Shown piece after piece: positions 1 through 32,708 of a stretch of 35,083 nucleotides of DNA. Source of the DNA: Bacteroidales bacterium Phil12 (GTDB taxonomy: Bacteria > Bacteroidota > Bacteroidia > Bacteroidales > P3); NCBI GenBank assembly GCA_002633275.1, contig NWBO01000167.1, forward strand, positions 1 through 35,083, in the 5' to 3' direction. The notes under the pieces were generated by a model, which was not told the origin of the DNA, did not search any database, and saw nothing but the letters and a program-made list of their open reading frames with translations. Within the stretch, counting starts at the first letter, position 1; every line of letters begins with the position of its first letter. The translations under genes and the position numbers were made by a program.

Positions 1-3000
1 CCAGTTTATTGTTGATTCAGTTTTATCTGAGTCTTCAAAATCAGGAATAGCTATAGCTTCTTCGTTATCACGAATGAGTCTTCTTACAGAAATGTATGAT
101 TCACTGTCGGTTCTGATATTCCCAAACAAATTGATAGCATCAACATTCTGTTCCAACCATTTCTGCATTTCGTTGGGAAGCTTTTCTTCGTCATTAAGTA
201 AAGATTGCTCTGCAAATACTTGGGTTTCTGAATCAAAATCAGAAATCTTGAAATACTCATCAAACCCTCTATACTGGTTAGTCTTAATCATTGTCAAAGC
301 CTCGCTAAGACTCTCTTCTTTACCTATTGCAAGATTGTAATAATCAGGCTCATCATTAAGTGAATAGTCAAGACAGAAGCGGAGTTGTTCTATTGTGAGA
401 TGTTTATCTTTTATCTCGTCATAGATTTCTTTGCAAGAAACGTTCTCCTTCTTGTCTCCATAAAATTGTTCCTTAAACCACTCTGTATCATTATCTGAAG
501 GAAGACAATCCAGGAATGAATCAATATGTTCATTCTCTTCTTGATAATCACCATTTAAGGCATACAGACTATACTCATGATCATAAGCAATGAAAACACT
601 ATCCTTTATTGTCTCTGGAAGTCCTTCATTATTATGTCTGATACAATTAAATATGATTTTTCTAAATTCATTCTCTTCAGTATCACGTGACACAGCAAAT
701 TTAATAATCTGCCAACGAATATCAGAATCTGTAATCTTATGGTCGATAGATATTATAGACAACGAATTGATATAATGTTCCACAACAGCAGAGTTACAAT
801 TTCTGATAAGGGGAAATATTAGATTCTTATCTGAAATCTTATCTACAACAGAATTTGCAAAGTCGTCACGAGTGATATTGAAAGCATTTGTATCTGATGG
901 AATAAGAGTTTGTACCTTTTGAGGTATATAGTAAAATCCAATCTCTAACAAAGCATTTCTCAAATCCGTGTCAAGGTCATTAGTATAGTTTTTCCCACCA
1001 TTAAGGGCCTGAACTCTAAAGCTATTATCATTACCTATAACCCTGTATTTAAGCAAGAATCCATCAGATGATATCTTCGACAAAATAGCCAATGTATCAA
1101 AGTCTATAAACTGATTAGGGTCAATCAAATCGTAGACATATAAGGTATTCATCATGAATGGTGCAGAACTCAACACCTTTTCGTACTTATATGGCACAAA
1201 ATTATAATCAGAATATGAAGCTTGAAGTTTTTCATATTCTGCTTCAGATAACTTATCGAAGTTTTCTACATTCTTACATGATTCATCTGTGGGTTTACCA
1301 TCCTTGTCAAGATATAATCTAAGTAATGAACCTGCAACAGATGTTCCACCAGCCTTGTAAGCATTCTGTATATCTCTTAGATATGCATCTGTGTTGTCGC
1401 CCCAGCCATCTTCTTGCTTTATATCATCGAAATGATTTACGATCCAATTCCATAGTGCAGTATTGTCGCCTTGTTTGTCAATAAGCCAATCTCGCTGTTT
1501 AATACATTCAGGTATGCTACCTTTGATGCGGAAATTGTCAAACAAAATAGTCCCGTCCAAACGCTCTTCAAACAGTTCAGAGAATGGCAAATAATCACTA
1601 CGCCAATTCTGAAGAACAGTGATTTCATTTATAATTTCATCTTCGTAATCAGATTCATTTTCAGCAATCATACAGAGCGTTTGACATACTGCATCTCTGC
1701 CCATAGAAGTTTCTCTCAATTCTGCAAGATTTGCTTTTATCTTACCGAAAAGATTTGAATAATCATCTTCATCATATTCCTCACACATAGGTTCTACTAT
1801 ATACTCTTGACCTACAAATATTGGTTGTGTCGTCTGAGCCATATAGTAAACATTGATATCGGACTTCAATTCCCCCCATGAATATAAATTATTCTCATTT
1901 GAACGGAATAATTGTATTGTTTCAATATCTGAGATACAATCAAGACAATTGGTATGGAATAGTCTATATTCCTCCTTAGACATACACTTTATCCATGCGG
2001 ACAATTTTTCCATGTCTGCCATTTGAAGCATCTCAGCAAAACGTAAAACACGAACCTTTTTATCAAAGTGGAAAGAATATTTTTTTCTGCTTTCATTGTC
2101 AATCCAATGTAAATCAGTTATACCAATATCTTTCAATAAAACATTCGTTTCCTTTTCTTCCTCACATACTTGTTCAAAAGGTACGTAAGTACCCTCAGAT
2201 GTATAAGCATATTCATTCAAGAATGGACGAATAACATCATAGAATGCTTTACGGATCTTCTGTTCATCTTCAGAGTTATCTTCTGGGCGTGACGATATCA
2301 AGGACTGATAGATATAATCAAACTTTTCTCTATTTGTAACCAAAAGCGACTTCAATTCATCAACCAAATGTGTATAGGCAAGACGCAATTGATCACAAGT
2401 TTTTTCTGTATCGCTTATACGCTGACGGCTATCATCTACCTCTAAAATCTGGCTGTCCAAAATAAAACCAAATCGATATTTTGTTTGCAGAATAGGCAAT
2501 CCCTTAAAGAAGTTAACCACATTTTTTTCAGCGAATATTGGATTGAAAGCAAAGTGATAATGGAATTTATTCCCTTCTTCTACAAAATCAACAAATAACG
2601 AACTAACAGGATGCTGCTCTACGTCCTTACCCATCACATATATATGTTTAAGTGATTTGCCTACATTACGCTCTTGATCTGCTGTAATAGAAGCAAAACC
2701 ACCTAAACGTGCACGAACATTCTCAAGGTTGTTTTCTTCAATGATCGCATCATACTTACCCTTTCCTAAGGGTATAATTAAAGCCGTTCCCCTAGTCAAG
2801 AACGATTTATTTCTTGGTGGATCAACTAATTCATTGAATGCCTTAATTGCTCTTTGAGCTTCTTCATTGCTAAATCTTTCTAAATCTTGACCTGGTGCTA
2901 TTGGATAATAGCTCATAAGAATTTTGGCAAACAATATATGGTTCTCAACATCGTCTGCTTGAGCAGGAATCCACTCATCATCGTTAATAAGCCAAGCATC

Positions 3001-3540
3001 CAACTGGGACATATTGTGCCAACTAACAAGATATGGTCCTTTTTTGTTATTAATGATGGCATCTTTAAGAAGCTCTTCTGTATTGACGTTATGATTTATA
3101 TCTGCCAAAAGTGTATAAAGCAACTTGGAACCTTGACCATATTTGCCCAATTTGTCATCATCGTTTAACTTCAAGGATTTACCTTTTGCCAAAAAATTAT
3201 ATAACTGACCATCTCTAGGCTCTTCGCCTTCAGGAAGATCAAAAATATTGAGGTCTGTAAAGAACGGTTCTCCGTTATTTAGTACTATCAAGAACTCTTC
3301 ATTAGCATAGAAGAATAAAGAATCTGCACTTGCATCATATGCATTCTGCACAAATTCATAGAACAACTGTTCTTTTGCATTATTTGCAAAACTGGCTGCA
3401 CCTGTTATGAGAGCATCGACTTTTTGTCCCTGCCCACTCATCATATTCAAAAAGTATTCTTTATTCGAACCTACTAGTTCAAGGGTTTCATTACCTTTTG
3501 AAATTGATTTTATATATTGTCTGAGGTCTCTTACTTTCAT
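1..3540 (-). CDS. Large GHKL-ATPase-fold protein, 3' end beyond the left edge (partial)
   Basis: The reading frame is open on the minus strand from an ATG at 3540 to the window edge: 1180 codons with no stop, so the true length is unknown. The N-terminal ~145 residues look like a GHKL (Hsp90/MutL/sacsin-type) ATP-binding domain. There is an E62-x3-N66-x2-D69 helix (N-box), an N-N-G at 88-90 in the place of the usual DxG box, and a glycine-rich lid G-K-Y-G-Q-G at 132-137. The rest is a long, mostly soluble region I do not recognise. It is third in an operon with the ZorB-like and ZorA-like genes, 12 nt after the ZorB-like stop. By analogy with Zorya, whose ZorAB membrane complex works with cytosolic ZorC/D or ZorE, this protein may be the cytosolic partner or effector. 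That is inference. The ATPase fold call is fairly secure; the function is unknown. Confidence 0.75.
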   Translation of the reverse strand, partial: MKVRDLRQYIKSISKGNETLELVGSNKEYFLNMMSGQGQKVDALITGAASFANNAKEQLFYEFVQNAYDASADSLFFYANEEFLIVLNNGEPFFTDLNIFDLPEGEEPRDGQLYNFLAKGKSLKLNDDDKLGKYGQGSKLLYTLLADINHNVNTEELLKDAIINNKKGPYLVSWHNMSQLDAWLINDDEWIPAQADDVENHILFAKILMSYYPIAPGQDLERFSNEEAQRAIKAFNELVDPPRNKSFLTRGTALIIPLGKGKYDAIIEENNLENVRARLGGFASITADQERNVGKSLKHIYVMGKDVEQHPVSSLFVDFVEEGNKFHYHFAFNPIFAEKNVVNFFKGLPILQTKYRFGFILDSQILEVDDSRQRISDTEKTCDQLRLAYTHLVDELKSLLVTNREKFDYIYQSLISSRPEDNSEDEQKIRKAFYDVIRPFLNEYAYTSEGTYVPFEQVCEEEKETNVLLKDIGITDLHWIDNESRKKYSFHFDKKVRVLRFAEMLQMADMEKLSAWIKCMSKEEYRLFHTNCLDCISDIETIQLFRSNENNLYSWGELKSDINVYYMAQTTQPIFVGQEYIVEPMCEEYDEDDYSNLFGKIKANLAELRETSMGRDAVCQTLCMIAENESDYEDEIINEITVLQNWRSDYLPFSELFEERLDGTILFDNFRIKGSIPECIKQRDWLIDKQGDNTALWNWIVNHFDDIKQEDGWGDNTDAYLRDIQNAYKAGGTSVAGSLLRLYLDKDGKPTDESCKNVENFDKLSEAEYEKLQASYSDYNFVPYKYEKVLSSAPFMMNTLYVYDLIDPNQFIDFDTLAILSKISSDGFLLKYRVIGNDNSFRVQALNGGKNYTNDLDTDLRNALLEIGFYYIPQKVQTLIPSDTNAFNITRDDFANSVVDKISDKNLIFPLIRNCNSAVVEHYINSLSIISIDHKITDSDIRWQIIKFAVSRDTEENEFRKIIFNCIRHNNEGLPETIKDSVFIAYDHEYSLYALNGDYQEENEHIDSFLDCLPSDNDTEWFKEQFYGDKKENVSCKEIYDEIKDKHLTIEQLRFCLDYSLNDEPDYYNLAIGKEESLSEALTMIKTNQYRGFDEYFKISDFDSETQVFAEQSLLNDEEKLPNEMQKWLEQNVDAINLFGNIRTDSESYISVRRLIRDNEEAIAIPDFEDSDKTESTINW

Positions 3541-3552
3541 AATTCCTCTACT

Positions 3553-4251
3553 TTATTTGATGTAAGGGATGATTTGAATGATAAATGTTTTGTTGAGTTC
3601 TTCTTGGCCTGGAGTATTGGGATATCTACCTTGACCACCAAAACCCGAACCAGAAATAAACACTTCTCCATTCATTTCTTGAATGGATTTAATTATCCCA
3701 TTTTGATTCCAAAGATTATATAAGCTCAATGCACGTTCATAGCTACGAATTTCCATTGTGTGCCATACAGATCTATCCGCTGCTTCATTTGCTTCCTTGG
3801 AACCTTTGTTCAAATGTCTGGCTGCTCGTCCTTCTATTATGATTTTGAAAGAGATGTTTACAGACTCTTTAAATTTGGACAAAATTTTGTTAACCAACTC
3901 TTTTCCCGCTTCTATAAAAATTTCTTCTTTATCAGCCGGGATATTTGCCAAATTAGGTTCAAACATTATATCTGATTTACACTCAAATCTTTGATATTGC
4001 TCATTATAATGGAAATACTCACTTACCAATGACTTTTGTGCTTCGTTGAACTCTCGAATCATTCTTGATTGTTCAATGGTGACTTTTATACTACCACCAT
4101 CACCACCAATAGCCCCTGTCACCTTAATGTAGCCATACCATGCAACAAGACTGGTTATGATAAACACAACCAGAAACCCTGACATTAAATCTGTATAATT
4201 CTGCCAGAAATTATGCTCGTCACCTTCGTTTTTAAAATTCAACTTACTCAT
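3553..4251 (-). CDS. ZorB-like / MotB-OmpA family membrane protein
   Basis: This 232-aa protein has the MotB/ZorB layout: a short cytoplasmic N-terminus, one membrane segment (about residues 19-43) with an aspartate at its start (D21 in Y-T-D-L-M), and a C-terminal OmpA-like domain (about 110-230). In MotB and ZorB the equivalent Asp is the ion-carrying residue. The OmpA-like part retains an I-I-I-E-G strand, a helix S-Y-E-R-A-L-S-L and a final beta strand, consistent with peptidoglycan binding in the periplasm. Its ATG overlaps the stop of the ZorA-like gene by ATGA, so the two are translationally coupled and probably form one inner-membrane complex. The family (ion-driven stator-like unit) is clear. 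Assignment to Zorya proper is less sure because no ZorC, ZorD or ZorE is seen. Confidence 0.8.
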   Translation of the reverse strand: MSKLNFKNEGDEHNFWQNYTDLMSGFLVVFIITSLVAWYGYIKVTGAIGGDGGSIKVTIEQSRMIREFNEAQKSLVSEYFHYNEQYQRFECKSDIMFEPNLANIPADKEEIFIEAGKELVNKILSKFKESVNISFKIIIEGRAARHLNKGSKEANEAADRSVWHTMEIRSYERALSLYNLWNQNGIIKSIQEMNGEVFISGSGFGGQGRYPNTPGQEELNKTFIIQIIPYIK

Positions 4252-5741
4252 TTGTTGGCGATTCTATTAAGTTGACTTTCAAGTTTCTGAAGAGTCTCAA
4301 TTGTTGTGCTGATTTCATTGATGTGAGAAATCAGGTTCTCTATACGTTCTTGTCTTTCTTCCATTACAGCAATGACTTCATCCACCTTTTCATTTGTGTG
4401 GACAACATGCTTCATGCTATCATTAATGGTCGAAAGCATATTTTCTTGACTCTCATTCATCCTATGAGCATTATTTACGGCATCAATATATGCTTGAGCT
4501 GCACTCTCATAGTTGCCCTTAATATTTCGAACATGATCACTGATGTATGCATAACTCTTTTCTAATGCTTCTACATTTGTGACAATTGCTGAACTGAGGG
4601 CATTAACTTCATCAGTAACAGTCTTCTGCAAGTCCGTTACGAATGTAGAAAGAGAATTGCGTAATTCAGCACTTACTTCACGATTCATAGATGTACTGCT
4701 TTGAAGCATTTTTTGATTTACTTCAGCATAAGCATCCTTCAAATCAACCATCTGTTGCAAGCTGTTTGTACTTTGTTCCTGAATCTTTTCATATTCAGCA
4801 TTAAATTGTGCATTCATCTTTTCAGCGAAATCTGAGTTCTGACTAGCCAATTTTTCTGACAAAGCATTATAGTTTTCAACGATAGAAGTCAATTTTTCAT
4901 CCTGGCTAGAACGTAAATTAGCCAATGCAGAAGTCATTTGAGTACAGAGTGATGTGATTTGTACTGTCACATTGTTAGATACAGACTGTAACTCTGTATT
5001 GGTCCCTGCAATCATTTGCTGGACATTAGTCTTTTGCTCTTCAAGCAGACCTGTAGAGAGTGAAGACATTTTATCTGTCAAAGCCTCAAGAGTATCTGCA
5101 CATTTCTTGAACTGTTCTTCACCAAAGTCCTTAATATTCTGTTCAATCCGGCCATTCATCTCAGTAAAGATATCATCCATTCTCTTTACAAAGTCATTAA
5201 TAAATTGCTCAAGAATCTTACTTTGCTGGCTAATAGTAGTATTGAGTCGTTCATTATATTCTTCATTTTTGGCACTTTGTTCTACAAGTTGCTGTGAAAT
5301 CCTTGATAGAGATTTATTTGTTGTAGTTGACAACAGGGTAAGATTATACAAACACTCTTCAGGTGTTTGTAGGTTAATTTTCTTTTCCAATTTCCGGTCT
5401 TCATATGAATACCATATCTTACATCCAGCTGTTGCGATAAACGCAGAAATAAGACCTGCGATAGAAGATGTAAAGGCAGGTACCAAATTTCGAATTATGG
5501 TATCTATTTCAAGTGAGTCCTGGTTGATGTCGCCTAATGAATTACAGATAGCCACGAATGTTCCCAAGAGACCTAATGAAGTAAATAAGCCTGGTAAGCT
5601 ATTCAGTAATTGTCTGGATCTATTCTTATAGTATATCAATCCAAAAATTACAGTTATCACAACGCTTGCAATAAACACACCCTTACCTGTCAGCATTACG
5701 GCAAGTGGTTCTGTTAAGCATTTGAATTCAATTTCACTCAT
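4248..5741 (-). CDS. ZorA-like / MotA-TolQ-ExbB family protein with coiled-coil tail
   Basis: This 497-aa protein has three predicted membrane helices (about 20-38, 51-69, 86-109). A P-G-L-F-T-S-L-G-L-L-G-T-F stretch at 50-62 is typical of the MotA/TolQ/ExbB channel fold and of ZorA. Residues ~115-497 are a long, Gln/Ser/Asn/Glu-rich heptad-like region, matching the long intracellular tail of ZorA rather than the short loops of MotA or ExbB. It is first in the minus-strand operon and overlaps the ZorB-like gene by 4 nt. In Zorya, ZorA5ZorB2 senses envelope disturbance at phage entry and signals through the tail. A similar role is inferred here. Flagellar MotA is unlikely, because no flagellar genes are present and the tail is wrong for it. 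Confidence 0.82.
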   Translation of the reverse strand: MSEIEFKCLTEPLAVMLTGKGVFIASVVITVIFGLIYYKNRSRQLLNSLPGLFTSLGLLGTFVAICNSLGDINQDSLEIDTIIRNLVPAFTSSIAGLISAFIATAGCKIWYSYEDRKLEKKINLQTPEECLYNLTLLSTTTNKSLSRISQQLVEQSAKNEEYNERLNTTISQQSKILEQFINDFVKRMDDIFTEMNGRIEQNIKDFGEEQFKKCADTLEALTDKMSSLSTGLLEEQKTNVQQMIAGTNTELQSVSNNVTVQITSLCTQMTSALANLRSSQDEKLTSIVENYNALSEKLASQNSDFAEKMNAQFNAEYEKIQEQSTNSLQQMVDLKDAYAEVNQKMLQSSTSMNREVSAELRNSLSTFVTDLQKTVTDEVNALSSAIVTNVEALEKSYAYISDHVRNIKGNYESAAQAYIDAVNNAHRMNESQENMLSTINDSMKHVVHTNEKVDEVIAVMEERQERIENLISHINEISTTIETLQKLESQLNRIANK

Positions 5742-5790
5742 GACTTCTATTATTGTTTCAATTTGTTATTCTTTACTAATTATTATACTG

Positions 5791-5819
5791 CAAATGTAAT
5801 CTATTTTAAGGAGAACAAT
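5791..5819 (-). promoter_or_regulatory. Predicted Bacteroidales promoter for the ZorA-like operon
   Basis: Read on the minus strand, TACATTTG (5798-5791) fits the Bacteroidales -7 consensus TAnnTTTG. An ATTG at 5819-5816, 17 nt further upstream, is a one-mismatch -33 TTTG box. This would start transcription about 40 nt before the ATG at 5741. Call made by motif match only. Confidence 0.5.
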
Positions 5820-5831
5820 ACGAAAACGAAG

Positions 5832-5858
5832 AATAATTTGCATAAAAAGCAAATTATT
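5832..5858. promoter_or_regulatory. Perfect 10-bp inverted repeat, candidate shared operator
   Basis: AATAATTTGC at 5832-5841 and GCAAATTATT at 5849-5858 are perfect inverted repeats around a 7-nt spacer. The repeat sits between the -33 boxes of two divergent predicted promoters. A dimeric Xre-type repressor, such as the product of the next gene, is the natural candidate ligand. It is too AT-rich and lacks the T-tract expected of a terminator. Confidence 0.6.
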
Positions 5859-5866
5859 TGTTGAAT

Positions 5867-5901
5867 TTTCGATGATTATTTTATAATTTCATCTATTTTT
5901 G
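5867..5901 (+). promoter_or_regulatory. Predicted Bacteroidales promoter for the MADS-like operon
   Basis: TATTTTTG at 5894-5901 fits the -7 consensus TAnnTTTG, 21 nt before the ATG at 5923. The -33 element is weak: TTTC at 5867-5870 with a 23-nt spacer. The -7 match and its position are good; the -33 match is poor. Confidence 0.45.
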
Positions 5902-5922
5902 CATTAATAAAACTGAAAAAAC

Positions 5923-6132: not shown

Positions 6133-6240
6133 ATTACCCGCATATCCTATAGTTTTAATTCTAATGCAAAAGTACTCATATAATTGCGAGTTCGGAATAC
6201 ATGGCCGATAGATGGACTAAAATGGATGTGCGTATATAAA

Positions 6241-8295
6241 ATGAACCAATTACTTTTGCAAGTTATGGCAGACCAATTCAACAATGAACAGGCAAACCTC
6301 AGTGAAGTAGTGCTTGGTGAGAATGAAATTATATGCTCTCTTACTAACAGAGTTGTCAAGGCAACAGACAAGGAGCTAACTCTTCAGTCAATGATTAACA
6401 TGATGACTGAAGAATATGACTTTGCCCCTTCTGATATGGAGAGAGACTTCAAAGTTAAGTATGAAGATGTAGATGAGGGTAAGACAAAGAATCAAAAGGT
6501 AGATTTGGCTATCTTTGAGGAAGGACGTGCTCACGATGTGGCTAATTTAGTTAGAGTCATTATCGTAGCCAAAGATGCAAAGGTAAAGCCAGAAGATAAG
6601 AAGAATGGTGTATCAGCATCCCTTGAAGGCATACTATGCTTCACAGATTGTCAATTTGGCTGCTGGACAAATGGAGAAGACTTACAATATCAGTACTCTT
6701 CTGAAGATGCATTTGGTCAGACAACTATTGAATCTATCTCAGACTTTCCTGCTAATGGTCAAACCTTGGAAGACCTCGAAGCACAAGGTGAACGTGCAAT
6801 GCCTCGTAAGCCGGCAAATGAATCTTTGGTAAAGACCTTCAAACGCTGCCATGACTATATCTACGGAAATGAGGGTATGAAGAAGACTGCCTTCTGGGAA
6901 CTTCTTAATCTCATTTTCTGTAAACTTTATGATGAAAAACGTAGATTCTCTGATGCTAAGGCTGGAATAAGCTATCGTCGTCGCTTCTGGGTTGGTGTTA
7001 AAGAGCAAAACACAGAAGAAGGAAGAAAGGCTGTAGCAGAACGAATCAAGGGTATATTCGAAGACCTTAAGGAAAGCAGCGTATTCAAGGATGTATTTGA
7101 TGGCAATGAACAAATTATGCTTTCTGATAGAGGTTTGGCATACGTTGCCAGTGAATTGGCAAAATACTCATTCCTCGATGCTACTGTAGATGTAAAGGGT
7201 ACAGCTTACGAAACCATTGTAAGTAATACTCTTAAGCAAGAGGCTGGTCAGTTCTTCACACCAAGAAACATCATCAAGTGTATGGTTGAAATTCTCGACC
7301 CAGATGAGAATTGCCGTGTTCTTGACCCAGCATGTGGTTCTGGTGGATTCTTGGTTATGGTTCTTGATCATGTAAGACATAAAATCGCCAGAAGAATGTA
7401 TGGCGATTTGGATGATTTGCATCTTGAAGCCAAGCTAAACTCACCTGAGGTTGATGACTGTGTACGTGAGTATGCAGAGAAGATGATATTTGGTTTCGAC
7501 TTTGACCCAGACCTCAAGAAAGCAGCACGTATGAACATGGTGATGGCTGGTGATGGTCATTCAAACATATACAATATCAACTCGCTTGATTATCCTTATG
7601 GTGCTAAACCAGATATACCATTAATTGCAGAAGCAGTGAACAAGAGTATCAAGCAGAGCGCTGATAAAGATTTCAAGTTTACTACAGCAGAAAATAATGC
7701 TCAAGGTAAGTTCGATATGATTTTCACTAACCCACCTTTCGGAGCCAAGGTTGAGGTAGATATTGAAATTGCCAAGCGATATGAGTTGAATAGCAAGGCT
7801 CCTGAAGTTCTCTTCATCGAAGCCTGCTGCAACTTCTTAAAGCCTGGTGGTAAGATGGCAATCGTTCTTCCTGATGGTATCTTGGGCAATCCTAATACAG
7901 AAGAAGTACGTCTGTGGATTCTCAAGCATTTCAAACTGATTGCTAGTGTTGACCTACCAGTAGAAACCTTCTTACCTCAAGTTGGTGTACAGGCATCACT
8001 GCTTTTCCTCCAAAAGAAAACAGATGAAGAAATGTTGATTCCTATTGAGAGTGAGGATTATGATGTATTTATGGCAATCGTTGAACAAGTGGGCAAAGAT
8101 CGTAGAGGTGTTCCTGTCTATGAAAGAGACGAAGACGGGGCTGAAATCTTATTCCCTCATGTAAAACGATGGTTGGCATATAATGAGTTCGGACGTGAGG
8201 TAGTTCGCTCACGCAACGAACGTATAAAGAGATTAGCTGATGACCTACCAAAGGTTACAGAAGAATATAGAAAATTTAGGTTTGATAAATTATGA
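6241..8295 (+). CDS. hsdM: HsdM-like N6-adenine DNA methyltransferase (MAD2-like)
   Basis: This is a type I-style modification subunit of 684 aa from the chosen start. An all-helical N-terminal HsdM domain precedes Q-F-F-T-P-R-N, then SAM-binding motif I D-P-A-C-G-S-G-G (from residue 362) and catalytic motif IV N-P-P-F (from 497), the N6-adenine pattern. The frame is open from about 6184 (TTG) with ATGs at 6223, 6241 and 6265. I chose 6241, but 6265 is almost as likely, and a TACTTTTG box at 6251-6258 could even be a promoter. The stop overlaps the HsdS start by ATGA, so the M and S subunits are coupled. No HsdR helicase/nuclease is present. In context it should make the self-methylation mark of a MADS-like system. 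Confidence 0.9.
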   Translation: MNQLLLQVMADQFNNEQANLSEVVLGENEIICSLTNRVVKATDKELTLQSMINMMTEEYDFAPSDMERDFKVKYEDVDEGKTKNQKVDLAIFEEGRAHDVANLVRVIIVAKDAKVKPEDKKNGVSASLEGILCFTDCQFGCWTNGEDLQYQYSSEDAFGQTTIESISDFPANGQTLEDLEAQGERAMPRKPANESLVKTFKRCHDYIYGNEGMKKTAFWELLNLIFCKLYDEKRRFSDAKAGISYRRRFWVGVKEQNTEEGRKAVAERIKGIFEDLKESSVFKDVFDGNEQIMLSDRGLAYVASELAKYSFLDATVDVKGTAYETIVSNTLKQEAGQFFTPRNIIKCMVEILDPDENCRVLDPACGSGGFLVMVLDHVRHKIARRMYGDLDDLHLEAKLNSPEVDDCVREYAEKMIFGFDFDPDLKKAARMNMVMAGDGHSNIYNINSLDYPYGAKPDIPLIAEAVNKSIKQSADKDFKFTTAENNAQGKFDMIFTNPPFGAKVEVDIEIAKRYELNSKAPEVLFIEACCNFLKPGGKMAIVLPDGILGNPNTEEVRLWILKHFKLIASVDLPVETFLPQVGVQASLLFLQKKTDEEMLIPIESEDYDVFMAIVEQVGKDRRGVPVYERDEDGAEILFPHVKRWLAYNEFGREVVRSRNERIKRLADDLPKVTEEYRKFRFDKL

Positions 8296-9695
8296 AATGT
8301 CGAGTTATAAATAGCCAAGAAGTCCTTTTAAGCAAAAGGTTTGACGGAAGCTATCATAATGCAGAAGTAAATATATACTCTTCTGTTATTGAAAGACATT
8401 CTTCGTTCAAGCTTAAAGACTATTGCACTGAAATATTCACTTCTGGCAGAAATAAACGTGTATATACAACAAAGGAATTTGGTTATCCATTTCTAAGCAA
8501 TTCAGACGTAGTTGCAGCAGCCCCTCTAGCGTCATGTAAATACAGTTCTAAAAAATACGGTTTTGATGAGAAAGCTATTCTTAGAAAGGGAATGATTCTT
8601 ACAGGAAGAGTTGGCGCGATAGGTCAAACCGCTTTTGTTCCAGGGTATTTAGAGGCATATAATGCAATGGGATCTGATAATATCATACGTATCTGTGTTA
8701 AGCCTGAAGAACGTAATGGATTCATTTATGCTTATCTTGCATCAAAGATAGGCAACTTATCGTTTTGGAAGCACGCTACAGGAGGCGTACAGCCATTTAT
8801 AACGGATGCAATGGTTGGAGAATTACCAATACCAGATTTCCCTGAAGCTTTCCAAAAGGAAGTTGATGATTTGATTCAAGAATCAGCTCGCCTAAGAGAA
8901 GAAGCAACAGAAGCACTTGAAGATGCATCGAAATTATTAAAACATTACGCTTCGTTATCAGATTTAACAGAAGCAGATTATGATTATTATGGTCCTCGTT
9001 CATATGAACGGCAAGTTTCATGTTTTGTAAAGAGTCGTAAGGATATTGATTCTACAACAATAAACGCATTTAATCATTCTGAAAGAATAAAAAATACAAA
9101 GGATAAGATTACATGTCTCACAAGACCATTAAAAGATTTAATTATTAATGGTGATGTATTCTCCACAGGTTCGTTTCCTAGGATAGAAGTAAAAGAAGAT
9201 AAAGGCATCATGCTTATCAACCAGTCTGACATATTTGATACAATTATCAGAGGAAAGCACATTTCTAAACGCAATGTAAAGTTATCGAATCTTGTAGAAT
9301 ATGGAGAGGTATTAATTGCTGGCGTAGGTACATTAGGAGAAAATGAAACTTTCTGCAGGTGCATATATGCTAATGAAGATTTGGTTAATCAACTTGTATC
9401 TGGTGAATTTATCAGAATGAAAACTATAGAAGAAATACCTTCGGGTTATCTTTATACATGGCTATCATCTGATTATGGATTTAGATTCATAAGAAATCTT
9501 CAAACAGGTACGAAATTATGTCGTCCTATTCCTCGATTACTTTTAGAAATACCTGTGCCTATTATAGAGTCTAATAAGATGAAAGAAATTCATGATATAG
9601 TAACCGATGCTCATACCAAAAGATACAAAGCAAATTGCTTAGTTAAACAGGCTATAGGAATGATTGAGAATGAAATTGAACATTGGAATAAGTAA
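8292..9695 (+). CDS. hsdS: HsdS-like specificity subunit (MAD5-like)
   Basis: This 467-aa protein has the two-half HsdS layout. There is a first target-recognition domain (about 35-185, containing G-M-I-L-T-G-R-V-G-A and ending G-E-L-P-I-P), a central helical spacer rich in Glu/Ala (about 190-225), a second recognition domain (about 265-430, with G-E-V-L-I-A-G-V-G-T and L-E-I-P-V-P), and a C-terminal helix. Two unlike recognition domains predict a bipartite, asymmetric methylation site. Its ATG overlaps the HsdM stop. It should dock HsdM on DNA and possibly guide the downstream ATPases. The target sequence cannot be read from the protein. Confidence 0.9.
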   Translation: MKCRVINSQEVLLSKRFDGSYHNAEVNIYSSVIERHSSFKLKDYCTEIFTSGRNKRVYTTKEFGYPFLSNSDVVAAAPLASCKYSSKKYGFDEKAILRKGMILTGRVGAIGQTAFVPGYLEAYNAMGSDNIIRICVKPEERNGFIYAYLASKIGNLSFWKHATGGVQPFITDAMVGELPIPDFPEAFQKEVDDLIQESARLREEATEALEDASKLLKHYASLSDLTEADYDYYGPRSYERQVSCFVKSRKDIDSTTINAFNHSERIKNTKDKITCLTRPLKDLIINGDVFSTGSFPRIEVKEDKGIMLINQSDIFDTIIRGKHISKRNVKLSNLVEYGEVLIAGVGTLGENETFCRCIYANEDLVNQLVSGEFIRMKTIEEIPSGYLYTWLSSDYGFRFIRNLQTGTKLCRPIPRLLLEIPVPIIESNKMKEIHDIVTDAHTKRYKANCLVKQAIGMIENEIEHWNK

Positions 9696-9717
9696 TTTAA
9701 TGTAGATAAAGCCGTAT

Positions 9718-11724
9718 ATGGATAAAGTTCTAAGTACTATATATCTCAAAGTGAAATCAGAGACGCAAACTCTGACAAAGAGTGCTATTGCTCAAATTTT
9801 AGTTAAGATTATATACTCAAGTGAAAAACGAATGTCACTTAAGGATATAATAGCTTCATATAAGGCATTTACAAACCGTAAATGTGTAGATGAGCAAATA
9901 ATCACAGAGCTTATTGAAAACCTTTGTAAAAACTCTGAGATACAAATTAGTTCAAAGAACGAGTATTATTTATCACCTTCAAGACGAAAACAGATATGCA
10001 AATGTTGTGAGGATTCTGCTAATCGGACTAACGCAATTCTTGCACGATATTTCTTTGAAGTACACACAGAAAAAGAAGTAATAAGACAATGGTTTCAAGA
10101 TGTAACGCTTCACTTCTTTCAGTTCTTTTCTGACGAATGGATTTCAGACTTATTGAAAACCAAAGATGCTGTAATTCATAGTAAGGACAGCATAAAAGAT
10201 ATGGTTGAAAGAAGAACAAGAAATATTAAGGGTGTTGACAAAAAAGATTATGAAATTCTTCCTAAACTATTCTTTAAGTTTCTTGGCTCTAAAGATTCTG
10301 ATGTAACAGCCTATCTATGGGAATATGGCACGTCTGCATTTTCCGCAAAATTGATAAGTAACACAACAGGAATAGATGCACTTACTTTAGATGTGTTCAA
10401 AGGCTCGAAATGTCTATTGGATACCAACATTCTTATGTTCATTAAGTTAGATGCGAGTAAATTTCATAATGCACTAATTTCTCTAGAAAATACTTTCAGT
10501 ACTCTGAGAATTAAGTTAGGAGTTTTATACATTACTAAGCAAGAATTCCAGCACAAAATTGAACATCAAAGATGTTTAACACTCAATAATCTTGAAAAGT
10601 TTGGATTAGATTTGACATCTAATGCCAATGATGATTTTACTCAAAGTGCTATAGCTCTACATTGTAGAACTAGTGAAGATTTCGTTAGATACTTTGATTG
10701 TTTACGAGAACTTCCAGAACATCTAAACGAGACTCTAAAGATAGCTGAAATTGATGATAGCAAGACATTATTAGAAGCGATAGAAAAGGCTCAAAAATCA
10801 GAGCATAAAATAGCAGAGTTAAACAACGTTTATAAATCCGCAACAGGACGTGATAAAAGGACTTCTGCGCTAACGCATGATGTTGGTTTAATTGCAGGAG
10901 CTGAATTCTTAAGAAACGATGACAAATGGTTTATTTTATCGGAAGAGATTTCAGTAAATAACTATTCAAAAAATAAACCAACTGTAAGTGGATTACCATT
11001 AGCCTTAAGGGTTGAAACACTGATTAACGTCTTAGCTCTTAATAATGGTGGAGACTCTTTTGATGCAGATGATTATATGCCTTTATTTGCGTCAATAATC
11101 CAGAACGGTTTTCAGCCTCTGAAAGACACTTTTGTTCAGGAGGATCTATACGCAATATATGAAATGAATCAGCAAATTGCGTTACTCCCTGAAGAACAAA
11201 AGAAAGTGATTGTACAAGAAATCAATTCTAAGAGACTTAAAGGAGAATCTGAAGATAAATTGAAAGTAGAACTTGAAAGAGCAATAACAAGAGGTAAGCT
11301 ACAAGTTCATGATGACTTAAATGAAGCTAAAGAGCAACTTTCAGCATCAAAGAAAGAAACACAAAGACAAAAAAATAGAGGAGACGCCACATATAAGGTG
11401 TTACGTAAAACTATAGAAACTCAAGTAATTTCTAAATACAGAAAACGTTTTTGGGGAAGAATTGCTTTATTTATTGGTGGGATAATATCCATAGGTGTCA
11501 TGTTTTTCTTAATCTATTCCTGGATAAAGAATAATTTCGAGGACACTAACAGCCAATCTATTGCTTTTCTAATTAGCATTGTTACAAGCCTTGCTATTGA
11601 ATTAGCCTTGGGTTTCTTTGGATTTTTCAACGTTAAAGGAATATTCAAAAACAAGAAAAAATATATAAGAGAGCAAACTGAAATTGAATTAAATAAAGCT
11701 CTAGAAAATGATGAATTAAATTAG
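9718..11724 (+). CDS. PIN-domain protein with two C-terminal membrane helices
   Basis: This 668-aa protein has a central PIN-like nuclease domain (about 230-410). Its acidic residues are D235 in L-L-D-T-N-I, E276 in I-T-K-Q-E-F and D388 in T-H-D-V-G, followed by a strand at W404-S408. PIN domains are metal-dependent RNases of the VapC class. The N-terminal ~220 residues are helical and unrecognised. Residues ~470-575 are charged and helical. Two membrane helices follow at ~582-602 and ~615-637, so the nuclease would be tethered at the inner membrane. It starts 22 nt after hsdS and lies 11 nt before the CpXC gene, so it is cotranscribed. A toxic or effector RNase role is inferred. The PIN call rests on motif spacing and should be tested by structure prediction. 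Confidence 0.62.
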   Translation: MDKVLSTIYLKVKSETQTLTKSAIAQILVKIIYSSEKRMSLKDIIASYKAFTNRKCVDEQIITELIENLCKNSEIQISSKNEYYLSPSRRKQICKCCEDSANRTNAILARYFFEVHTEKEVIRQWFQDVTLHFFQFFSDEWISDLLKTKDAVIHSKDSIKDMVERRTRNIKGVDKKDYEILPKLFFKFLGSKDSDVTAYLWEYGTSAFSAKLISNTTGIDALTLDVFKGSKCLLDTNILMFIKLDASKFHNALISLENTFSTLRIKLGVLYITKQEFQHKIEHQRCLTLNNLEKFGLDLTSNANDDFTQSAIALHCRTSEDFVRYFDCLRELPEHLNETLKIAEIDDSKTLLEAIEKAQKSEHKIAELNNVYKSATGRDKRTSALTHDVGLIAGAEFLRNDDKWFILSEEISVNNYSKNKPTVSGLPLALRVETLINVLALNNGGDSFDADDYMPLFASIIQNGFQPLKDTFVQEDLYAIYEMNQQIALLPEEQKKVIVQEINSKRLKGESEDKLKVELERAITRGKLQVHDDLNEAKEQLSASKKETQRQKNRGDATYKVLRKTIETQVISKYRKRFWGRIALFIGGIISIGVMFFLIYSWIKNNFEDTNSQSIAFLISIVTSLAIELALGFFGFFNVKGIFKNKKKYIREQTEIELNKALENDELN

Positions 11725-11735
11725 AACATACTTCT

Positions 11736-12407
11736 ATGTCACAAGTAAAGAGAGAAACTATAGAATGTCCAAACTGCCACCGCAAAGGTGAATTTGAGAT
11801 TTGGGACAGTGTAAATGTGGATTTGGATCCAGAACTCAGAGAAAAGATTTTCAATGAGGAACTATTCATGTATCACTGCCCTCATTGTGAGCATGTGACA
11901 GGCATTCCTTTGGACACTCTTTACCATGACATGAAGAATCAATTCATGTTGTTCTTCAGTTTCTTCAAAGAAGACGATTTCGATTATAAACTTATGGATA
12001 TGGAAGTACCAAAGTCTATGATGAAAGGTGACTATACGTTCCGTATGGTTTTCGGCTTGATGCAACTCAAGGAGAAAATTGTCATTCTTGAACATGGTCT
12101 AAATGATGTTGCCATTGAACGTCAAAAGTATATGATTAGCCATGTCATAATGCCTGAGATAGCTCAAAATGGATATGAACTTTACTTTGCAAAGGTTGAT
12201 GAACCAAGCGAAGGATTTGAACATGGTGCTATCTACTACTTTTATGAGGACAAAGAAACTGAAGAGCTAATGACTGTACGCTTTGCCATGGACAACTACT
12301 ATGAGCATTGCCTTGCTTGTGAAATTGACCCAAGAATGAAGGTCGAAGGATGTGCTTGTGTAGATCGAGATTGGATGGCTCAACAATTTAAAAAGAATAA
12401 TGTATGA
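11736..12407 (+). CDS. CpXC-domain zinc protein
   Basis: This 223-aa protein has two C-P-x-C motifs, C11-P-N-C14 and C48-P-H-C51, the signature of the CpXC domain, which is expected to bind one zinc ion. The remainder is acidic and contains no membrane segment. Proteins of this family are known mainly from genome context and have no firm biochemical role. Its stop overlaps the WG-repeat gene by ATGA, so the two are translationally coupled and may form a complex. It sits between the HsdS gene and the kinase fusion, where I would not expect it in a standard MADS locus. Confidence 0.78.
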   Translation: MSQVKRETIECPNCHRKGEFEIWDSVNVDLDPELREKIFNEELFMYHCPHCEHVTGIPLDTLYHDMKNQFMLFFSFFKEDDFDYKLMDMEVPKSMMKGDYTFRMVFGLMQLKEKIVILEHGLNDVAIERQKYMISHVIMPEIAQNGYELYFAKVDEPSEGFEHGAIYYFYEDKETEELMTVRFAMDNYYEHCLACEIDPRMKVEGCACVDRDWMAQQFKKNNV

Positions 12408-15139
12408 GCGAGGAAAAGAAAACATATAATGGCAGAGTCCAGTTCTGGGAACATGGATATGTTGGAGTAAAAGACTATGACGATAATGTTGTAATCTCTC
12501 CTTCCTTGCAATACGAGGAGATTCGTGAAAGAGAAGGTGAAGAAGTTGCCATAGTACTTAAAGGTGGCAAATGGGCTTTAACAAATCTAGATGGTGTAGC
12601 AATTTGTCCATTCATATATGACCGCATATCGTATATAGGAGCACATCTTTACAAAGCAGGTATCTATGTATCTGAAGATTATCTTAACACAAGAGTCGAA
12701 TATGCAGATACAAGAATGACATATGCAATTCTTGATGCGAATGGTAATATCTTATGCGATAGAAACAAAGGGTACAACTACATTTCTGAGGTGCATGAAG
12801 GTGAAGCTACAGCTGCCATCAATGGCCGTTGTGGCATCATTGATTTACATGGTAATGTACTAATGGATTTCCAACACAAGTATATCCAACCAATGGGCGA
12901 AGGTCATTACCTAGTTTCGTATCACAATGAAGATGATAATTATTACGCTACCATTATCAACAGAAAAGGCGATATCCTAATTTCCTCAAGCATGCAATAT
13001 CGTAGCATTTATGCTTTTCACAACAATGTTGCAGTTGCTCACCAAAATGGGAAGTGGGGATTGATTGATGACAATGGAAACCATATTGGCGAATTTAACT
13101 ATTCGTTTGTTGAAGAATGGGGCGAAGGATATTACAAGGCAGAACAAGGTGCCCAAAAGAACATACTCCGTCCAGATGGCTCTGTTGTGCTTGAACAATG
13201 GTATAACGATGTGTTCAAGGTACAACATGGCTTTTTCATTTTTGGCAACACCATCCGTAAGTCCAAGACCAACCCTAAAACAAGATACATACAAGGTGTC
13301 GCTCATGTATCAGGCATCATTGTGTTCCCAATGATATTTGAAAGAACTCAATGGTGTGAAGATGGTCTAGGCATATATGCAGAGATAGATGAAAAGCCAT
13401 ATATACTTACATTAGACGGAAGTATTTATGACCCAGCTCATTCACATTTGCCTCTGAGAAAGAAGATCAATTGGCCAGACCTTTTTGAAAAATTCGCAAA
13501 CTGGACATTGCCAGGTCTTCAGTTCTACTACAGAGATACTGATGCTCGTGTAATAATAGAAACTACTTATCATGTAGGAGATGTCTTGCGTGCCGGATTC
13601 CTATTGGACGCAACAACCCAATTATGGAAACCAGCTCACAGGACTCGTTTTATAATAGCAAGTGCACATGCTGCACATTTCTTTGAAATTGAGGATTTGG
13701 TAAAAGCTAATCCTAATGTAAAGGAATGGAATTTATGTACTTTCCCCTTCAATAGCTACTTCAAGGTGATGGATGTTTACGAGAAGGATGGATATAGACA
13801 AGTCTTTCTCTTGCATATTCCACCAGCTGCTGCACTCTTCCTTGGACGAGATGAAACGGCAATCAACTTCATCAATGAAGCAACAGGTCAAGAAGGTTCA
13901 CTTATTGAAATGGCACGAAAGAGTCTTGACGGAAAACTAAAGATGGATATTCACCCACGCTCTTTAGATCAAGACTTTGTAAATCGTATGCACCATCCGA
14001 TAGGTTTAGACCCAGACTTCTGGCCAGTGTCACCATATCCTATGGAAGAACCAGTCGATGGAGAACTAGCTTTCATCTGCAATATTGTACATAAGTTATC
14101 CGACGACAAGGATATAAAGGATTTTATAGTTGAAGAGGATAACTTCCCATTTACAGGAATCGTAGGCAGAGTATGTGAGGATTGCATCTATGCCAAAGGC
14201 ATCTGTGGTAATGGTGAAGGTTGTGGACGTTTGTTCATCAATTCGTTCAGAAACAGATACCTCAAGGGTAATTGCGAATATCACAAAACAGATCTTTACG
14301 AACCATCTCGTTACGAAGAATTAGAAAGCTTCAGAAAGAAGAAAGAAAAAGAGACAAAGGAGAAAACAGCAGACACTTTTGCTGTTGGATTGCTGAATGA
14401 TTTCATTAAGGAAAAACTTGATGGAAATATAGACAATCTTCGCACTTATGATTTGTCTAAACTCAGAGATGATTCTAAATATGGTGACTGTTCTATAGAA
14501 AGAGCTCCTATTGTGAGAGCGATTATGGCGTTGGCATTTGCTGACACGTGGCCTAATCTATCTGTCAATGCAATAGAAAAGTATGAATATTGGTGCAGTC
14601 CTATAAATCACTATCAAAGATTGTTTGGTGCAAATATACTTGACCAATACTTTAAGGGGTTACAGAACTTCTCCCCTACTGTAGAGCAACATGAAAGAGC
14701 TTTGAATGTGGCTCATCTCATATATTCAATCGGTAATATGTGGGTACTTCCTAACAAGGCTTCATTCAGCAGTTATCTGGATGATTCAAAATACAAAGGA
14801 TATGTGGATAAATTCCTTAAATCAATGTATGATGTCTTTGTTGGAGTATCCAAAGTAGACCTTAATATGAAAGGAATACTCTTCAAGAACCGTAAGATGA
14901 TGACTGAATATGAAGGTTTGAATGGCTGGAGAAAGTTCATAAAAATGATGATGTTGGAGGACTATACGAATGGTGCGATGGAACCAAAACCAATCTTCAA
15001 TCAGGTGTGGTGCTCAATGAAAGGTATAACGAGAGAAGATTATTTTGAAGCATTCGATAAATACTGTTCATTCTGCGAGGAAGCTATTCCCAAAAGAAGT
15101 GAACAGATTATAGAGAAATTAAAAGAAATCCTGAATTAA
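12404..15139 (+). CDS. WG-repeat protein with a Cys/His cluster
   Basis: This 911-aa protein has WG (KWG/Leptospira-type) beta repeats in its N-terminal ~350 residues, for example G-K-W-A-L-T-N-L-D-G, G-I-I-D-L-H-G-N and G-K-W-G-L-I-D-D-N-G. These usually form a binding platform. A Cys/His cluster follows at 591-627 (C591, C594, C601, C607, C624, H627), a likely zinc site. The C-terminal ~250 residues are helical and unrecognised. No catalytic motif or membrane segment is seen. It is coupled to the CpXC gene by a 4-nt overlap and ends 16 nt before the kinase gene. A phage-component sensor or scaffold role is possible but is inference only. Confidence 0.78.
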   Translation: MSEEKKTYNGRVQFWEHGYVGVKDYDDNVVISPSLQYEEIREREGEEVAIVLKGGKWALTNLDGVAICPFIYDRISYIGAHLYKAGIYVSEDYLNTRVEYADTRMTYAILDANGNILCDRNKGYNYISEVHEGEATAAINGRCGIIDLHGNVLMDFQHKYIQPMGEGHYLVSYHNEDDNYYATIINRKGDILISSSMQYRSIYAFHNNVAVAHQNGKWGLIDDNGNHIGEFNYSFVEEWGEGYYKAEQGAQKNILRPDGSVVLEQWYNDVFKVQHGFFIFGNTIRKSKTNPKTRYIQGVAHVSGIIVFPMIFERTQWCEDGLGIYAEIDEKPYILTLDGSIYDPAHSHLPLRKKINWPDLFEKFANWTLPGLQFYYRDTDARVIIETTYHVGDVLRAGFLLDATTQLWKPAHRTRFIIASAHAAHFFEIEDLVKANPNVKEWNLCTFPFNSYFKVMDVYEKDGYRQVFLLHIPPAAALFLGRDETAINFINEATGQEGSLIEMARKSLDGKLKMDIHPRSLDQDFVNRMHHPIGLDPDFWPVSPYPMEEPVDGELAFICNIVHKLSDDKDIKDFIVEEDNFPFTGIVGRVCEDCIYAKGICGNGEGCGRLFINSFRNRYLKGNCEYHKTDLYEPSRYEELESFRKKKEKETKEKTADTFAVGLLNDFIKEKLDGNIDNLRTYDLSKLRDDSKYGDCSIERAPIVRAIMALAFADTWPNLSVNAIEKYEYWCSPINHYQRLFGANILDQYFKGLQNFSPTVEQHERALNVAHLIYSIGNMWVLPNKASFSSYLDDSKYKGYVDKFLKSMYDVFVGVSKVDLNMKGILFKNRKMMTEYEGLNGWRKFIKMMMLEDYTNGAMEPKPIFNQVWCSMKGITREDYFEAFDKYCSFCEEAIPKRSEQIIEKLKEILN

Positions 15140-15155
15140 AATTAAACCTATATAT

Positions 15156-18100
15156 ATGGCTAAGATTAAATGTCCACTTCACGACGATGGTCCGGTAAAT
15201 GCAGGTGAACAGCGTTTACTTGATTATTTAAGCTTAAAGCTGCCAGAAAACTATTACATTGTCCCGAATGTAAATTTACCCATTTCAGGACCGAACAATG
15301 TGATGAAATATTGGGAGTACGATTGTATCGTAATAGCTCCTCATGCCATATTCCACATAGAGAATAAGGATTGGGGTGGTAATCTTGAAGGTGATGATTT
15401 TGCTTGGTTCCGTAGTGGACAAGAGGTGGCAAACCCTCATAAAACTGCCGGACTTAAGACACGTATATTGGCATCAAAGATTAAGAATGCTCATCCAGAT
15501 TGGAGATTCGGCCAAATATTTACTTTAATTACCTTAAGTAACCCACAACAGTCTAAGTTTGGTTTAGATCCACAGTGTGAATGTTACAAGCAAACATATA
15601 CACTTGGAAATGAATTGATAGACTTCTTGACTAACTATGACATGTTAGGCAGAAGACAATATCAAATTTCAGATGTTCAGGAGAAGGTTGCAGACTATTT
15701 AACAGGTCAATCAGTTGCTGGCATAAGAGCTGCACGCACAGAGCTATTCAATTATAAGATTATTGAAAAGCTACAAGAAACCGAAGAGTTTACAGAATTC
15801 TTGTGCGAGCCAAAACTGATTGCAACAGCAAAATATAAGATTCGTGAATATCCATTGGATGTTGCTGGCAAGAGTCCAACCGAACTTAACAAGCTCAGAC
15901 TTCAGGTTCAGAATGCCGCTATCGCTCAACAGAAGATTGGTATTTCTCCATATATCGTTCAAACAGACTGTCGTTTGAACGAAGAGCAAACGTACTATTA
16001 TGAGATTAGTAGATATCAAGATGAAAGTACGCTCCGTTCTAAACTGCGATTAAAGACATTCAAGCAGACTGATAAGATAAACATTATCCTTGATGTTGCT
16101 AAAGCCTTAAAAGAGGCCCACAAAGAAAGTGTTTACCATAGAGATGTATGCCCAGAGAACATCTACGTGTACGAAGGAGGCAAGGCTGCACTTGCCAACT
16201 TTGGTATGGCGTGGTTCATTGAACATACAGATCTAAGTTTTACAGTTAACAGAAATTCCGATAATACTTCACCATATACAGCTCCTGAAGTTATTGATGG
16301 AGATGTTTGTTCAAGCAGTGATATATTCTCACTTGGTGTCATTTTCTATGAGTTAATGACTGGCAAACTCCCATTCGATAGTGCAATGACATTTACTCTT
16401 GGCATGAGTGGCAAACTCCCTGAAGATTCATTGCCTTGCAAGGTAGCTAAGGATTTGCCAAAGTGGATGGACGAAGTCGTCAAGAAGACTATTGTTGGAG
16501 AATTGGACGAGCGATGGGATTCTGTAGATGATGTTATCAACTTCATTACCACTGAACTTGAGAAAGAACAGGCGGCTTATCATACTATTTCTCATTTGTC
16601 AAGTACTCCAGACTCTGAACAGACTTTATATCTCAAGGATATGAAGCCGGGAATGAAAGTGTCACCAAGTATGACGCTTCATGACATATTGGGCCGTGGT
16701 GGTTTTGGTCGTGTCTTTAAGGTTTGGCACGATATGCAGAAACAGTACCTTGCCATTAAGATATTTGAGAAAGACGCTTCCATAGATAACGCATTAAATG
16801 AGTTCAATGCTCTAAAAGAATTGTCTCATCCCAATATTGTTGAGTTCAAACACAACGATAGAACTATGCCTGGTGGCTTATTCTATACATTGATGGAACT
16901 GCTTGAGGGAGACAATCTGCATAACTATATAAGTGGAGATTTGCGTTTGCCTATAGATGAGATATACAAAATGACAACGCAGATATTGAGTGCTCTTGTA
17001 TATATGCAAAAGAAGGATCCACCAGTATACCATAGAGATATTAAGCCAAGCAACATTATGTGGCATAAACGCCAGTTGTACAAGCTTATAGACTTTAATA
17101 TCTCCACTACAACTGATGATCATTCATTTGGAGGCACTTTGCCATATATGGCTCCTGACTTGGTTGTTTCAGGAAATAAGATTGATTGGGACTGTTCTGC
17201 CGATACATTTGCATTGGGTGTAACACTGTACCAACTGTTGACACATGCTTATCCATGGCCAGGTTCTCAGCTACGTCCAAACATACATATGGAGCCTACT
17301 CCTATCCAACAGTACAATGAAAAGTTGACGGATGAGTTTGCGGAATTTGTAATGAAGTCCATCATTACAGATAAGACAAAGCGTTTCGGAACAGCTAAAG
17401 AAATGTTAGCCGCACTTGAGAAGATAGGATTAGACGGAATACTTAAGGATACAACAAAGGTTATTATTCTTGATGACCCAAACAATATTGATAATCCTGT
17501 TGACTATATCAATTCGCTGTACAGTCAAAGCCGTCATGGAAACAGAGGTACCCGTGCTGGTTCTCATTCCCATGTATTCGACGCTTTGACCTATACAGAG
17601 ACGAAGTTAGATAAGGAACTACTTTCGGATATCAGACAACTCAAGTATAAACTTATTATCATTACTGGTAATGCTGGTGATGGTAAAACTGCCTTTATTC
17701 ATCGAATTGAGAATATCGGTGAGAACAAGGTCACGTTCGAATCTAACAATGGTTCATCATTTGATATTTCAGGCGTAAAATTCCAAACCAATTACGATGG
17801 TTCTCAGGATGAAGATGAAAAGGCAAACGATGATGTTTTGACAGATTTCCTTAGTCCGTTCTTTGGCCTTGAGAATTACAATAATGCAACAGAAGGACGT
17901 GTTATTGCAATCAACGAAGGCCGATTGGTTGACTTCTTGACAACACGACCAGAATTGCGTAAACTTCAGGATAATATTGAAGAGTATTTCTACAAAGAGG
18001 GACATACAGAACTGATGCCTGGATTGCTTGTTATCAATCTTAATCTCCGTTCTGTTACGGCTAGAGGTGATAATAACAGTCCAAGTTTGTTGGCTCAGCA

Positions 18101-19283: not shown

Positions 19284-19287
19284 AGGT

Positions 19288-29848: not shown

Positions 29849-29860
29849 TGTTCATGAATT

Positions 29861-29941
29861 GATTTTTTGAGAGTGGCAGTTTATCCGCTTGCCGCATAGG
29901 TTTTAGTGGCACTAAAACACAAACTTGCCACTCAAAAAATC
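29861..29941. repeat. Nested inverted repeats upstream of mobC, candidate oriT
   Basis: An imperfect ~20-bp inverted repeat has arms at 29861-29882 and 29921-29941 (TTTTTTGAG...TGGCA). It encloses a perfect 8-bp hairpin TTTTAGTG-G-CACTAAAA at 29901-29917. GTGGCA or its complement occurs three times. The right arm covers the stop codon of the upstream gene (29932-29934). Such structure just before mobC is where oriT usually lies. It could instead act as a terminator for the primase gene. Confidence 0.45.
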
Positions 29942-32637: not shown

Positions 32638-32664
32638 TTTTTCTTCGTATTAAAGTTGATGCCG

Positions 32665-32695
32665 CAAAAGTATAGGGATGTTTATGAGTGCTAAA
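32665..32695 (-). promoter_or_regulatory. Predicted Bacteroidales promoter for the primase/mob operon
   Basis: On the minus strand TACTTTTG (32672-32665) matches the -7 box TAnnTTTG. TTTA (32695-32692) lies 19 nt upstream, one mismatch from the -33 TTTG. The -7 box ends 27 nt before the ATG at 32637. This is the best promoter match in the window. Confidence 0.6.
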
Positions 32696-32708
32696 TAGGT
32701 GCTTGAAA

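Follow-up and report, generated by a model that had tools for sequence, protein, structure and literature searches.

A pair of ZorA-like and ZorB-like stator genes, a gene for a GHKL ATPase carrying a nuclease-type domain, and an SNF2 helicase gene probably constitute an independent, four-gene, Zorya-like anti-phage module of Bacteroidales and their near kin. The module is represented in a 35,083-base stretch of DNA (hereafter called the window), which is the entire contig C167 (NWBO01000167.1) of the Bacteroidales bacterium Phil12 genome, an assembly of 174 contigs. There it stands divergently beside an operon resembling the DNA-methylation defense system MADS, and the two adjoin genes typical of a single mobilizable element. 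The evidence observed for the module comprises the order and linkage of its genes, matches to known folds and a set of conserved residues.

The preliminary description of this DNA had reported a ZorA-like and a ZorB-like gene, and both are real. Their open reading frames (ORFs) were confirmed and overlap by 4 nt. The ZorA-like protein matches the Pfam family MotA_ExbB (1.8e-5) and, among PADLOC models, is closest to ZorA2 (4.6e-14), and the ZorB-like protein is closest to ZorB1 (7.5e-10). Profiles of the two proteins find, as top matches in the PDB, chains 8vvn_C (1.1e-9) and 8vvn_B (5e-5), respectively. Features that characterize a Zorya stator are present in both subunits, namely a MotA/ExbB channel with a long tail in ZorA and a transmembrane segment with an aspartate, followed by a periplasmic domain, in ZorB. 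This aspartate, Asp21, is retained in all 14 ZorB proteins of the module. An OmpA match to the periplasmic part was obtained for the homologue in locus L034 only, and under its cut-off (0.0012). Arg173 of ZorB aligns with the arginine of the LSTDRA motif in 8vvn_B, and the other candidate peptidoglycan-binding residues were judged by eye. One point slightly lowers our confidence in the assignment of these genes to a Zorya-like module. The PDB file does not name 8vvn as Zorya, its chains being labeled merely as MotA/TolQ/ExbB and MotB-related. From a ZorA of 696 residues, we infer that 8vvn is the Shewanella Zorya ZorAB described in PMC11890865.

The window is a complete contig that ends inside the GHKL gene, and thus the operon is cut at the contig edge. 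The truncated GHKL protein matches the PADLOC model TmtA (PDLC03970) with 979 bits. A search of the source genome with the TmtA profile returned exactly two matches, one at C167:1-3540 (profile positions 1-1242) and the other at C9:166-1110 (profile positions 1285-1544), and the latter fragment scores 182 bits with the PADLOC model. The frame on contig C9, 402 amino acids long from base 1, aligns with the homologue of genome G138 over residues 1245-1648 of the latter, and the part in the window stops at residue 1186 of that same protein. The SNF2 helicase gene that follows on C9 encodes a protein 60% identical to the product of the gene at the same place in G138. As the ends of C167 and C9 do not overlap, the join between these contigs is drawn from homology. 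The preliminary description had held that ZorC, ZorD and ZorE are absent. Its statement describes the window only, because the C terminus of the GHKL protein and the SNF2 helicase lie on C9. No ZorC or ZorE match was found among the proteins scanned, and the apparent lack of ZorD was partly an effect of the contig edge.

The third gene of the module is best read as encoding a GHKL ATPase of MORC/Hsp90-like type whose C-terminal domain is of the PD-(D/E)XK type, and the fourth as encoding a RapA/DrmD-like SNF2 translocase. The GHKL protein carries the N, G1 and G2 motifs of the Bergerat fold. A sequence search of the PDB with the GHKL part returned nothing at an E value of 0.1. The C-terminal domain retains the core fold of PD-(D/E)XK nucleases together with its E, D and (D/E)xK residues, and E263 and K302 of the C9 fragment are among the putative nuclease residues. 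The helicase matches the DrmD model PDLC02619 with 622 bits, as compared with 109 bits for ZorD1 (helicase part), and its match in the PDB is RapA-like (1.9e-38).

Evidence that these four genes form a unit comes from other genomes. A genome collection was scanned using a pair of GHKL proteins and two short patterns, with no ZorA, ZorB or SNF2 sequence in the query. The scan confirmed 13 loci, of which ten are from Bacteroidales (some so placed by us), two are designated only “Bacteroidia”, and one is from Candidatus Cacconaster; two contigs that appear under double numbers (L050 and L034 of G138, and L056 and L144 of G914) were each counted once. ZorA and ZorB homologues lie immediately upstream of the GHKL gene in 13 of 13 loci. 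An SNF2 gene lies downstream in all nine loci that reach that far, a count that omits L053, L058, L061 and L062, whose sequence stops inside a partial GHKL frame or about 70 bases beyond it. A single Schlafen-type ORF intervenes between the GHKL and SNF2 genes in L052. The 4-nt overlap of ZorA and ZorB recurs in 11 of the 13 loci (the genes are 2 nt apart in L050 and overlap by 1 nt in L062), and the spacing from ZorB to the GHKL gene ranges from -4 to 9 nt. Ten systems are complete, namely nine of these loci and the window joined to its C9 parts. Across them, identity matrices were compared for ZorA, ZorB, SNF2 and the two ends of the GHKL protein, and they correlate with r values of 0.91 to 0.98, which were reached by at most 1 of 5000 permutations. 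Such a correlation is expected of any jointly inherited gene set.

In a tree of 42 rows, 28 of which are ZorB relatives from other contexts, the 14 ZorB proteins of the module group as a single clade (100/100). Only ZorB hits of 190 to 300 amino acids were admitted to this tree, and it holds no typed Zorya ZorB, so the clade is not placeable against types I to III. Two further genes near members of the module are recorded here as separate observations. In L055, a 1175-amino-acid SNF2 protein matching ZorD1 (406 bits) and DUF3670 is encoded at 18151-21678, just downstream of a module that has its own SNF2 helicase. In G138, a second, partial TmtA-type gene start (L034:2-502) lies approximately 8.4 kb from the GHKL gene of the complete module (L034:8937-13895).

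Strong ZorB matches (A5 profile, above 300 bits) were found in 1 of 395 genomes of the phylum, the window’s own, and in 2 of 190 genomes of the family, where the additional match lies on the contig of L056. A relatives search with the GHKL protein found 1 of 101 genomes, again the window’s own. The TmtA profile matched 43 of 393 genomes of the order, of which 32 had no match better than 1e-30, with short stretches only, and were not counted as members. Among the other 11, ZorA and ZorB stand beside the gene in G138 and the window only, and the contigs of G226 and G130 are too short for a decision. With the GHKL protein as a single query, no relative turned up among plasmids, phages or viral contigs. 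ZorB likewise found none among viral contigs and one distant relative among plasmids.

An alternative is that the stator pair is a cellular envelope motor of the TolQR, ExbBD or GldLM kind that merely happens to lie beside defense genes. The modest Pfam MotA_ExbB match is consistent with this possibility, as is the presence of ZorAB-like pairs in cassettes with tubulin-like genes (see below), which are not necessarily defensive. The rarity of the pair speaks against such a motor, as ZorB exceeds 400 bits in only 2 of the 393 order genomes. Two further points count against it: the pair is strictly linked to the GHKL and SNF2 genes, and its stator-type matches in the PDB, up to an E value of 1, are 8vvn, 8qyd and 8qyh, all taken as Zor proteins (8qyh is so named). 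We therefore regard the envelope motor as very unlikely.

Coordinates of the ZorAB-GHKL-SNF2 module and neighboring features in the window (contig C167) and on contig C9
Feature	Location	Strand	Remarks
ZorA-like stator subunit, 497 aa	4248..5741	-	MotA/ExbB domain and long coiled-coil-like tail
ZorB-like stator subunit, 232 aa	3553..4251	-	Asp21 in the single hydrophobic segment; periplasmic part putatively OmpA-like
GHKL-ATPase protein (PADLOC TmtA-type), N-terminal 1180 residues	1..3540	-	Gene truncated by contig end
GHKL C terminus with PD-(D/E)XK-type domain	contig C9, L044:1-1209		Same genome
SNF2 helicase, 949 aa	contig C9, L044:1211-4060		Start one base past GHKL frame
Divergent intergenic region, 181 nt	5742..5922		From ZorA gene to MADS-side helix-turn-helix (HTH) gene
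Perfect 10-bp inverted repeat, 7-bp spacer	5832..5858		Candidate operator
HTH regulator, 69 aa	5923..6132	+	First MADS-side gene, outside the ZorAB module
MADS-like operon (mad2, mad5, three further genes, mad6, mad7, mad8, PP2C)	6184..26986	+	Neighboring, apparently separate
Mobilizable-element genes (relaxase, DUF3987/primase, integrase, HTH)	27932..34756	-	Adjoin both systems

The neighbor on the other side of the divergent region conforms to its earlier designation as MADS-like, as PADLOC models identify mad2, mad5, mad6, mad7 and mad8 (the last with 117.6 bits) in that order. The preliminary description offered two interpretations of this arrangement, namely two adjacent systems or a composite in which an ion-driven membrane sensor is joined to DNA-modification defense. 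In such a composite, ZorAB would detect infection and switch on the MADS operon by way of the shared control region. As a means of deciding against the composite, it had named a co-occurrence survey in advance, and the two systems are found mostly apart. No MADS operon is present in the examined flanks of the 13 module loci, where 7.7-7.9 kb upstream of ZorA was covered in 11 loci and less than 0.7 kb in L057 and L058. When the ten MADS-side proteins of the window were compared with these loci by blastp (E value of 0.1), a single match was obtained, that of the window’s WG-repeat protein, in L062. Conversely, ZorA, ZorB, GHKL and SNF2 matches (E value of 0.001) are lacking near MADS in five of five other operons read, namely L104 (with 3 kb upstream only), L121 of Phocaeicola massiliensis, L122 of Bacteroides finegoldii, L123 of Hymenobacter and L124 of Piscinibacter. 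These comparisons used blastp with the window’s own proteins, by which a very distant ZorAB beside MADS could be missed.

Surveys of the order agree with this separation. A mad8 match reaches an E value of 0.001 in 32 of 393 genomes and is full-length in G000, G355 and G357 only, and the window’s genome alone combines one of these three with a ZorB above 400 bits. In G357, MADS and a distant ZorB are on separate contigs; its MADS contig stops at mad5, and hence it is not among the five operons above. In one other locus, L056, a mad3-like ATPase gene (946-3795, 277 bits) ends approximately 3.9 kb upstream of ZorA. This gene could be taken to favor the composite, but no mad gene of the window’s kind is present there.

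The divergent layout and the intergenic gap can also be cited in favor of a composite. The gap exists as first described, but it runs from ZorA to a 69-amino-acid HTH gene that had not been named. Copies of this gene precede MADS in L121 (76.6% identical) and L122 (79.7%), which indicates that it belongs to MADS and travels with it. The inverted repeat in the gap could serve both sides. It occurs only once in the window, and none of 100 shuffles matched its pattern at up to three mismatches. Yet of 500 base-shuffled copies of the intergenic region, 15 contain some inverted repeat of at least 10 bp. A search for a shared operator across related loci found none: the repeat was not found ahead of the HTH gene of MADS in L121 and L122, and the five four-gene loci examined have no 10-bp repeat upstream of ZorA. 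With both systems together only in the window, as far as the flanks were covered, the composite was rejected as highly improbable, and two adjacent systems is the interpretation supported. This case shows that a contig edge can create an apparent composite system. The more general idea of an ion-driven sensor joined to DNA-acting machinery survives, with that machinery apparently being the module’s own GHKL and SNF2 proteins rather than MADS.

Two independent systems might nevertheless gain functional synergy from their proximity while sharing no parts. A precedent is the array of Zorya II, Druantia III and ARMADA in E. coli, which is described as conserved and synergistic in PMC12458937 and PMC13192584. 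We consider this improbable for the window, as the MADS-ZorAB pairing is seen once only, such that no selection for the pairing is visible, and neighbors differ elsewhere. PADLOC analysis of chosen flank proteins identified type III restriction-modification (L034/L050), AbiE (L051 and L144/L056), DruE (L052), GajB-like helicases (L054 and L061), a retron-type reverse transcriptase (L059) and ShosA (L060); the other flank proteins scanned (4 of 10 in one batch and 6 of 10 in another) had no match.

The presence of relaxase, DUF3987/primase and integrase genes at the right end suggests a mobilizable element, and the whole stretch looks like such an element carrying cargo. In L122, a MADS operon with the same HTH gene has integrase, DUF3987 and relaxase genes as neighbors but no ZorAB. 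Other observations concern the MADS operons themselves. Between mad5 and mad6 of the window (9718-15139) are genes for a 668-amino-acid protein, a CpXC protein of 223 amino acids and a WG-repeat protein of 911 amino acids, none of which occupies this position in the other five MADS loci read. The mad2 gene of L121 reads as two ORFs. A PP2C phosphatase gene (26300-26986) directly follows mad8, as it does in L103, L104, L121 and L122, and no match to it was found in L123 or L124. Several MADS operons may accordingly pair a kinase with a phosphatase.

Defense, sensing, coupling and DNA cutting are functions that we infer for the four-gene module, and they can be combined in the following scheme. 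ZorAB would act as an ion-driven stator in the inner membrane, whose periplasmic domain would detect the disturbance of the cell wall that accompanies phage DNA injection. Ion flow past Asp21 of ZorB would then move the long ZorA tail, and this movement would license the cytoplasmic GHKL and SNF2 pair. The GHKL protein may serve as an ATP-dependent clamp that closes on the entering DNA and cuts it via its C-terminal PD-(D/E)XK domain. Moving or stripping the DNA may be the task of the SNF2 translocase at the same time. This scheme would parallel that of ZorC and ZorD in Zorya I with another effector pair. Alternatively, the nuclease could attack the host in an abortive response rather than the entering phage DNA, and host DNA damage is discussed for Zorya in PMC11890865. 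We hold this to be the less likely course, although sequence alone does not decide between the two targets.

Distant ZorB relatives in Bacteroidota occupy other gene sets. A ZorAB-like pair accompanies a DarT-type ADP-ribosyltransferase gene at L105:6317-11422 (-), L125:4505-8627 (+) and L147:9616-13769 (-), each with an antidote-like gene, which is an ADP-ribosylglycohydrolase gene in L105 and a DUF6939/NADAR-like gene in L125 and L147. It is possible that these loci represent a stator-linked DNA ADP-ribosylation system. Their ZorB proteins take three separate positions in the tree, although a count of tree labels against the four-gene group, with unlabeled rows left out, is compatible with a single origin. 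These three loci suggest that the ZorAB stator may be a reusable sensor. More broadly, and more tentatively than for the module itself, ZorAB-type stators could be a general, exchangeable infection-sensing motor in Bacteroidota, coupled to a GHKL clamp-nuclease with an SNF2 translocase and, apparently repeatedly, to DarT with an antidote. If this is true, one mechanical sensor would feed either DNA cutting or DNA modification, and a motor with interchangeable effectors would make the manner in which ZorAB signals directly testable.

A different, recurrent Bacteroidota cassette was also observed, as exemplified by L106:9031-19060 (-). It encodes proteins of approximately 420, 150, 480 and approximately 1100 amino acids, a MotA-like protein (recognized by position) and a ZorB-like protein. 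The 480-amino-acid protein has a weak tubulin/FtsZ match under the cut-off (checked in L106, L150 and L157 only), the protein of approximately 1100 amino acids has weak actin-fold matches in L106 and L157, and the L106 cassette also includes an aspartyl protease gene. A similar size order is found in L107, L108, L113, L117, L119, L120, L146, L150, L152, L154, L155 and L157-L160.

Literature of mostly open-access type, including PMC11890865, PMC12904381, PMC12458937, PMC8565338, PMC12505986 and PMC7159879, contains in its available parts no description of ZorAB with GHKL/TmtA and SNF2 or of ZorAB with DarT. For Zorya types I to III, a passage of PMC11890865 names other genera.

The neighbor in the window resembles MADS in the identity and order of its mad genes, but it appears to be separate from the ZorAB module and has three extra genes between mad5 and mad6. 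With Tiamat, the module shares a GHKL protein that matches the TmtA model. Tiamat is a one-gene system, whereas the TmtA-type gene is here the third of four, and two proteins that score higher on this model (L032 and L033) have no adjoining ZorAB match. With DISARM, the likeness is confined to the SNF2 helicase and its best match to DrmD. DISARM comprises DrmA, DrmB and DrmC with a methyltransferase, and the module operon includes no other DISARM gene. With Zorya, the module shares a ZorA/ZorB-type stator, a long cytoplasmic tail, the conserved ZorB aspartate and an operon with cytoplasmic DNA-acting genes, which in Zorya type I include an SNF2 helicase with a nuclease part. It differs in that its helicase is DrmD-like rather than ZorD and its nuclease-type domain resides on the GHKL protein. 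ZorC, ZorE, ZorF and ZorG are not among the PADLOC matches listed for 13 window, 3 C9 and 5 L034 proteins, and the gene sets of types I, II and III (ZorC with ZorD, ZorE, or ZorF with ZorG) were not found beside ZorAB, as far as scanned. Taken by its parts, the four-gene module is a putative new variant of Zorya with other effector genes, in which the ZorAB motor is equipped, in Bacteroidales of the gut, with an effector set of its own.

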